From the NCBI GenBank assembly GCA_026392155.1, contig JAPLCP010000049.1, positions 1-46,389 of the forward strand: a stretch of 46,389 nucleotides of DNA, read 5' to 3'. The notes beneath the pieces are model-generated. The model saw only the letters and a list, made by a program, of their open reading frames with translations, had not been told where the DNA came from and searched no databases. Positions 5,834 to 6,273 of this stretch are shown piece after piece. Positions within the stretch are counted from its first letter, which is position 1, and every line of letters begins with the position of its first letter. The stretch is from Armatimonadota bacterium (GTDB taxonomy: Bacteria > Armatimonadota > Armatimonadia > Armatimonadales > Armatimonadaceae). The translations under genes were made by a program, and so were the position numbers.

Positions 5834-5862
5834 CCCCCCTAACCCCCGCCCGGCGGGGGAAC
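5834..5862 (+). repeat. Left terminal inverted repeat of DUF559 cassette
   Basis: The 29-bp repeat begins CCCCCCTAACCCCCG and ends GGCGGGGGAAC. It is the reverse complement of 6216-6244 with one central mismatch. The inner part can fold as a G/C-rich hairpin. A related left end, including the preceding CTG, recurs at 8043. Confidence 0.85.
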
Positions 5863-5919
5863 AATAAAGAATTTTGCAGACTTTATCAGAATCGTGGGTT
5901 CCCAACCGTTCTAGAAGTG

Positions 5920-6273
5920 ATGAGATCAAAACCGAGATACTGGCGTGGCGCTTCGCCAGAGCTACAAACCGGACTCCGCTTTCGCCGCCAGTATGCCTAT
6001 GAAGTCTACATCTTCGATTTCTACTGCGCAGAGTTCAGGCTAATTGTGGAGGTAGATGGGGGCTACCACCATGAATCCTTCCAGTCCGAAAAAGACGGAG
6101 AGCATGATGCCTACCTTGCAGCCTTAGGATTTCGCATCGTTCGACTCACCAATGAGGAAGTTCTCTACCAGCTTCCCGTCGCCCTCCACAAAATCCAAAA
6201 TTCCCTCACAGAATGGTTCCCCCGCCCGGCGGGGGTTAGGGGGGAAGCTGATACAATAACCACCGACAAAACT
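5920..6273 (+). CDS. DUF559-family endonuclease-like domain, in frame with argG
   Basis: From the ATG at 5920 (GTG at 5917 is possible) the frame encodes the DUF559 core: [18 protein letters not shown], then [10 protein letters not shown], then ERDAY-like [24 protein letters not shown]559 has the Vsr/very-short-patch endonuclease fold. The Asp in FDFYC and the Glu-Val-Asp in VEVDG are the expected metal-site residues. The segment N-terminal to LRFRRQ is short and lacks the common LW-x-x-LR helix, so the copy may be slightly degenerate. No stop codon follows: the frame passes through the right inverted repeat (reading [12 protein letters not shown]) straight into the argG ATG at 6274. It could be translated as an N-terminal fusion to ArgG (558 residues) or be an untranslated relic. 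Its biological role is unknown. Confidence 0.6.
6216..6244 (-). repeat. Right terminal inverted repeat of DUF559 cassette
   Basis: This is the inverted partner of 5834-5862, ending GGTTAGGGGGG. It lies 29 bp upstream of the argG ATG, so the cassette forms the immediate 5' region of argG. A TACAAT hexamer just beyond it, at about 6251-6256, could act as a -10 element for argG. Confidence 0.85.

Follow-up and report, generated by a model that had tools for sequence, protein, structure and literature searches.

DUF559 nuclease genes between inverted palindromic repeats: a decayed cassette upstream of argG and related cassettes in many bacterial phyla

Genes for DUF559 proteins are found, in many bacterial phyla, between two inverted copies of a palindromic repeat, and comparison of the loci makes this gene-repeat association near certain. 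DUF559 nucleases are best read as partners of their own REP families, in a RAYT-like arrangement that would use an unrelated enzyme. The results suggest DUF559 as a second enzyme family, apparently not described before, that underlies the spread of palindromic repeats in bacteria. The DNA from which the analysis started, a stretch of 46,389 nucleotides from an Armatimonadota bacterium (referred to here as the window), carries what we consider, with somewhat better than even confidence, to be a decayed member of these widespread cassettes, whose nuclease would process its own REP family while host recombination spreads the repeats.

For many bacterial REP families, no mobilising enzyme is known. 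A specific and widespread link between DUF559 and palindromes would name a candidate enzyme for certain of these orphan families, and would give a function to a large protein family that is still labelled as being of "unknown function". It would also open the question to experiment with a single small protein and a single short DNA end. A full-text literature search, with subscription journals mostly outside its coverage, returned no publication linking DUF559 with REPs or inverted repeats.

Results

The cassette of the window

The window corresponds to contig C69 of a draft genome of 4.77 Mb, which was examined by regions and by pattern searches. The initial annotation had described near-perfect inverted 29-bp ends with an internal hairpin, and this description was borne out. 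The arms at 5834-5862 (CCCCCCTAACCCCCGCCCGGCGGGGGAAC) and 6216-6244 are reverse complements of 29 bp each with one mismatch, and ungapped extension lengthened them to 35 nt at 91% identity (Table 1). Within each arm lies a C5-GCCCGGC-G5 hairpin, with a computed folding energy of approximately -9 kcal/mol as single-stranded DNA. The arm pair scored 27.5, whereas 20 first-order simulations of the window reached no more than 15. The coding content had been described as a Vsr-like DUF559 domain, and indeed the gene matched Pfam DUF559 (PF04480) with E=1.3e-21 and 77 bits against a curated cut-off of 20.6. Of the 109 model positions, 1-20 are not covered by this match, which starts at 21; thus, the N-terminal part is missing. 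A Pfam search found no Y1_Tnp domain in the cassette, the gene of which is DUF559. No GTAG tag was found in the window arms; cassette ends have C-rich tags such as CCCCCCTAA.

Table 1. Coordinates of the cassette and its neighbours in the window
Feature	Position	Strand	Basis
Left REP arm; C-rich tag CCCCCCTAA, hairpin core 5843-5859, inner tag ACAATAAAGAA just past the core	5831..5865	+	sequence
Promoter-like motif TTATCAGA-N15-CCGTT	5883..5910	+	common to other genes of the genus
Decayed DUF559 (Vsr/EDxHD-like nuclease) frame, no stop before argG	5920..6207	+	Pfam, congener comparison
Right REP arm with hairpin core 6219-6235, repeating the left arm in inverted orientation	6213..6247	+	
argG, downstream neighbour, DUF559 frame open into it	6274..7596	+	
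Repeat-domain lipoprotein-like gene, other neighbour of the cassette, likewise a neighbour in the congener	4587..5798	-	

The DUF559 frame of the window has no stop of its own and continues across the right repeat into argG, remaining open and in frame from 5920 to 7596. A read-through DUF559-ArgG fusion over this interval is conceivable; the open frame is probably a by-product of the lost stop.

Comparison with a congener

In a congener (G001), the cassette again lies between argG and the lipoprotein-like gene, in the opposite orientation; no cassette was found upstream of argG in the other genera examined. The alignment of the two loci, in which the flanks are antiparallel and the interior is parallel, shows one inversion of the cassette. 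The window protein is shorter than the congener copy by a net 26 residues, and the loss includes the conserved TxAExxLW helix. The window copy keeps the D, ExDG and H residues of an incomplete conserved core, whereas the congener copy has both the helix and the D..ExDG..H residues. The stop (TAG) of the congener copy comes from a TTAG inside its right repeat, and it has been lost in the window copy. The dN/dS ratio between the two copies was approximately 0.22 over 85 codons, indicating that selection acted during most of the time since their separation.

The present window copy is probably inactive. With helix and stop lost, and the congener cassette in the corresponding argG spacer, the proposal that the window copy is a self-contained mobile cassette is not supported. 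Mobility was to count as refuted if relatives all carried the cassette at argG with no other copies of the ends linked to DUF559 genes. About half of this was observed. The congener cassette is at argG (inverted), no second DUF559 gene with exactly the window ends was found among the four PF04480 matches of the window genome, and the congener has a truncated DUF559 paralogue elsewhere (L085) with ends that are matched but diverged.

The repeat family of the window

The window repeat is a REP family dispersed in the genome. Its 17-nt core, CCCCCGCCCGGCGGGGG, has 64 forward sites (≤1 mismatch) in the window genome and none for the reversed control. The search for this end family in relatives, which had been suggested at the outset, found 75 sites in the one congener examined (G001); 17 further genomes from the family and order had 0-5 each. 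The window cassette ends can be aligned with the end-only copies over the outer CCCCCCTAA, the hairpin and the inner ACAATAAGGAA tag, and certain end-only copies form inverted pairs some tens of bases apart. Termini shared by full cassettes and end-only copies were thus confirmed for this family, as they were for a second family described below. The window gene accordingly has one of the features by which a REPtron is recognised, namely flanking inverted REPs that are dispersed across the genome.

Other inverted REP pairs surround other genes in the window (9863/11172 and 15771/16424), and in a REP-rich genome with further framed genes, one framed gene alone proves little. Three window repeats, at 9335-9400, 9820-9885 and 11140-11225, are related to the ends of a different DUF559 cassette (L011). 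They surround a 168-aa ORF and the gene for a DegT-type aminotransferase, and one of them is read as the C-terminus of the ORF at 9410-9916. The inverted repeats at 15760-16440 frame a 184-aa hypothetical gene (15821-16375, minus strand) and resemble those of a RAYT of the same genome (L013). At 20428-20480 there is an intergenic, terminator-like short inverted repeat, AAAAAGGGTCTGTAGTAG...CTACTACAGACCCTTTTT.

DUF559 genes and flanking repeats across genomes

PF04480 matches occur in only four places in the window genome. REP-like palindromes lie near all four genes, each of a different type, and matched inverted repeats are clear for three of them and weak for the fourth (L009, score 15.5). 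For a wider comparison, we aligned the 350 nt upstream of each gene to the reverse complement of the 350 nt downstream, with a threshold score of at least 20, at 73 loci from Armatimonadota and 80 from many phyla. The collection was scanned with a five-sequence DUF559 alignment, an alignment of 27 diverse proteins being too divergent. Matched flanking repeats were found at 35 of 72 Armatimonadota loci, a set that includes large multidomain DUF559 proteins mostly without repeats, versus none of 22 control ORFs at the same loci. Across many phyla the corresponding counts were 48/77 versus 0/145. Around 40% of compact DUF559 genes have no clear flanking repeats. The base rate of framed ORFs was 2/662 in 800 kb of the congener, one of the two being a RAYT, and 2/37 in the window. 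Thus, framing is not unique to DUF559, yet it is strongly enriched there. The combination of palindromic ends with a nuclease unrelated to RAYT, noticed by the initial annotation at a single locus, recurs across phyla and is enriched at DUF559 genes.

These counts bear on the alternative that the framing arose by chance, from common REPs inserted independently at the two sides of a nuclease gene. The abundance of REPs in the genome fits this reading, as does the framing of two further window ORFs by inverted REPs. Against it, the cross-phylum counts refute chance for the family as a whole, the ends are cassette-specific, and the same framing is kept in the congener. We therefore assign chance a negligible probability.

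The ends follow the gene and not the genome. DUF559 pairs within one genome have ends no more alike than pairs from unrelated genomes, and close DUF559 homologues have similar ends (Mantel r=0.33, p=0.0005, uncorrected for common descent). The cassettes are low-copy, with at most approximately five per genome, each different, and a given full element is present once. Several cassettes have ends that are not dispersed. Two repeat families are almost confined to genomes with the cognate cassette. We sought a universal tag motif in the cassette ends and none held, C-rich tracts being common. A generic hairpin, CCCTCTCC, was correlated with the presence of a compact DUF559 gene (24/31 versus 9/30 genomes, p=0.0003, phylogeny not controlled). 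We place little weight on this correlation, because of the uncontrolled phylogeny and because exceptions exist: the hairpin is abundant in four genomes without a compact DUF559 gene (G059, G029, G035 and G048).

No close copies of a Rhizobium cassette were found in plasmids. At five Nostocales loci (L118, L121, L125, L126 and L132), the start codon of the DUF559 gene precedes the left REP, and the repeat is read as part of the protein (SLAGRGLGGG). These loci were set aside as evidence of mobility, because the start codon is outside the left repeat and one flank was masked.

A cassette shared by two species

The 551-bp DUF559 cassette of genome G013 (L037) is 99.4% identical over 540 bp to a cassette of the congeneric G016 (L057), and the DNA on both sides of the two copies is unrelated. 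At the G016 site orthologous to L037, the flanks are only 79-82% identical and the cassette is absent. The search for an empty site, which had also been suggested, was thus partly successful: the orthologous spacer lacks the cassette, but it holds other DNA and is not pristine. The L057 copy is short by approximately 15 nt at its left end and both assemblies are fragmented, making this good but imperfect evidence of movement as a unit. Apparently, the cassette moved as a unit between the two species.

The 50-bp ends of this cassette matched approximately 53 places in G016 and 13 in G013 among the matches listed, cassette ends included, and some 60 end-only copies share them. In 16 other genomes of the order there were few, weak matches. 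Neighbouring end copies lie 89-121 bp apart in 18 pairs, and the 11 pairs that were fetched are elements of approximately 153 bp, GAACCTAACC...GGTTAGGTTC, with differing DNA outside. No target-site duplication was apparent by eye in these 11 elements, and neither a target-site duplication nor a pristine empty site was found among the cassettes examined. One further DUF559 gene of G016 (L031, contig C239) has complete ~153-bp inverted-pair elements of the L037-end family on both sides.

Fold of the nuclease

Profile and predicted-structure comparisons of an intact DUF559 member gave as closest folds 3hrl, which is a Neisseria endonuclease-like protein, I-Bth0305I and Vsr. The match of this member, and not of the window copy, to 3r3p had a profile E=2.6e-5 and a Foldseek probability of 1.00; the intact member has, in this respect, the related catalytic domain expected of a relative of EDxHD homing endonucleases. 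DUF559 dN/dS values of approximately 0.1-0.3 indicate that the protein is under selection.

A nuclease of the Vsr/EDxHD fold can drive mobility by homing. DUF559 might be a free-standing homing endonuclease gene that cuts cassette-free inverted REP pairs, the cassette being copied in via recombination between the repeat arms. The profile and fold match to the EDxHD enzyme I-Bth0305I, which dimerises on a ~60-bp target (PMC3943268), is consistent with this proposal. So are the small, low-copy cassettes and the inverted REP pairs, which resemble possible empty sites with the same ends. However, a filled and an empty version of one REP pair were not found, the ends differ among cassettes, and end-only copies far outnumber cassettes, which is not a product of homing alone. 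We consider homing quite unlikely as the explanation.

A promoter-like motif shared with recombination and competence genes

In the genus of the window, TTATCAGA-N15-CCGTT precedes DUF559 genes (the window's included) and RAYT genes at fixed spacing, mostly about 8 nt before the start codon. The same motif also precedes recA, radC, ComEA-like helix-hairpin-helix genes and a ComM homologue (Pfam assignments; loci L086-L115). There were 43 sites (≤1 mismatch) in approximately 11 Mb versus 3 for a reversed control, indicating that this is not a general promoter. Its fixed spacing and position suggest promoter function, and its distribution suggests a recombination/competence regulon in this genus that takes in REP-associated genes, and so also when such systems act. 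DUF559 genes from other genera did not show the motif in their upstream regions, and no LexA-type boxes were found upstream of 80 DUF559 loci. In Caulobacter, the DUF559 protein VsrA is DNA-damage inducible, and in a cytosine methyltransferase mutant it causes damage signalling and is needed for the damage response (PMC12907096).

One alternative is that DUF559 is a host Vsr-type repair nuclease acting on mismatches or damage. The REP hairpins would then have a regulatory or protective role, would have settled next to a gene under damage control, and would spread by other means. The behaviour of VsrA, induced by damage and needed in cells lacking the methyltransferase (PMC12907096), argues for such a role, as do the motif in common with recA and radC and the relation of the fold to Vsr. 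A repair nuclease leaves unexplained why repeat types differ from gene to gene, why a repeat family is nearly confined to genomes that have its cognate gene, and why gene and repeats travel jointly. Moreover, recA and radC, members of the same putative regulon, have no such flanking repeats. This alternative thus appears unlikely.

RAYT genes in the same genomes

RAYT-type Y1_Tnp genes are present in the window genome, with their own inverted repeats. Among 20 RAYT-type loci tested in G001, G006, G007, G013, G014 and G016, 13 had matched repeats and none had repeats resembling the DUF559 ends of the same genome. On this comparison, RAYTs own repeats that are different from DUF559 ends, which also speaks against the reading that a RAYT, or some other transposase with recognition of REP ends, moves the cassettes as passengers. 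Most genomes with DUF559 cassettes do have Y1_Tnp genes too, the promoter-like motif is common to DUF559 and RAYT genes in the genus, and REP pairs can frame other genes. However, diverse passengers would then be expected, yet DUF559 is strongly favoured over control genes, and G054, a genome without a Y1_Tnp match, contains a DUF559 gene with weak REP framing (p 0.02). We regard a passenger role as very unlikely.

Discussion

The balance of these comparisons favours enzymatic processing of the repeats by DUF559; we infer that the nuclease would cleave the repeats and that cleavage would drive their spread. In the proposed mechanism, a small gene for a Vsr/EDxHD-fold nuclease sits between two inverted copies of the REP that belongs to that nuclease. 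The enzyme is probably made together with recombination and DNA-uptake functions. It would probably recognise the hairpin-plus-tag ends of the REP family that belongs to it, and nick or cut them in trans. The small repeats, solo REPs as well as inverted pairs, would then be spread or maintained by the recombination or repair machinery of the host, which on rare occasions would also copy or invert a whole cassette. The broader proposal, put forward tentatively and at a little under even confidence, is of a second, phylum-spanning class of REP-propagating system, in which DUF559, and not an HUH transposase, would process hairpin ends, spread REPs and their inverted pairs, and be induced with recombination and competence genes, at times when suitable DNA substrates are available.

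Several known systems resemble these cassettes in part. DUF559 has in common with Vsr and Caulobacter VsrA the fold, the family and the DNA-damage-linked expression; unlike either, the DUF559 cassettes have flanking cognate repeats and are co-distributed with them. The catalytic fold is likewise related to that of EDxHD homing endonucleases such as I-Bth0305I, a mobility-promoting nuclease. In contrast to I-Bth0305I, no intron, intein or added DNA-binding region was seen with DUF559, which is flanked by inverted REPs and accompanied by many end-only copies. Compared with classical transposons, the cassettes have inverted termini, but each full element occurs as a single copy. The ~153-bp elements have both termini of a longer gene-bearing element, as MITEs do of their parent transposons, but there is no DDE transposase, no target-site duplication was noticed, and the elements do not match the G013/G016 cassette beyond the ends.

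The closest parallel is with REP/REPIN-RAYT systems (REPtrons and TIRtrons, with TnpA_REP of the IS200/IS605 HUH superfamily). In both, a single low-copy nuclease gene lies between inverted hairpin repeats, the same repeats are found elsewhere as solo copies and inverted pairs, and a genome may hold several unrelated repeat families, each with its own gene, with no target duplication seen. The differences are that the DUF559 enzyme has a Vsr/EDxHD fold and is not an HUH Y1 transposase, and that DUF559 ends are C-rich and differ from the ends of co-resident RAYTs. The G013/G016 cassette stands in the same relation to the ~153-bp elements as a RAYT to its REPIN or a transposon to its MITE.
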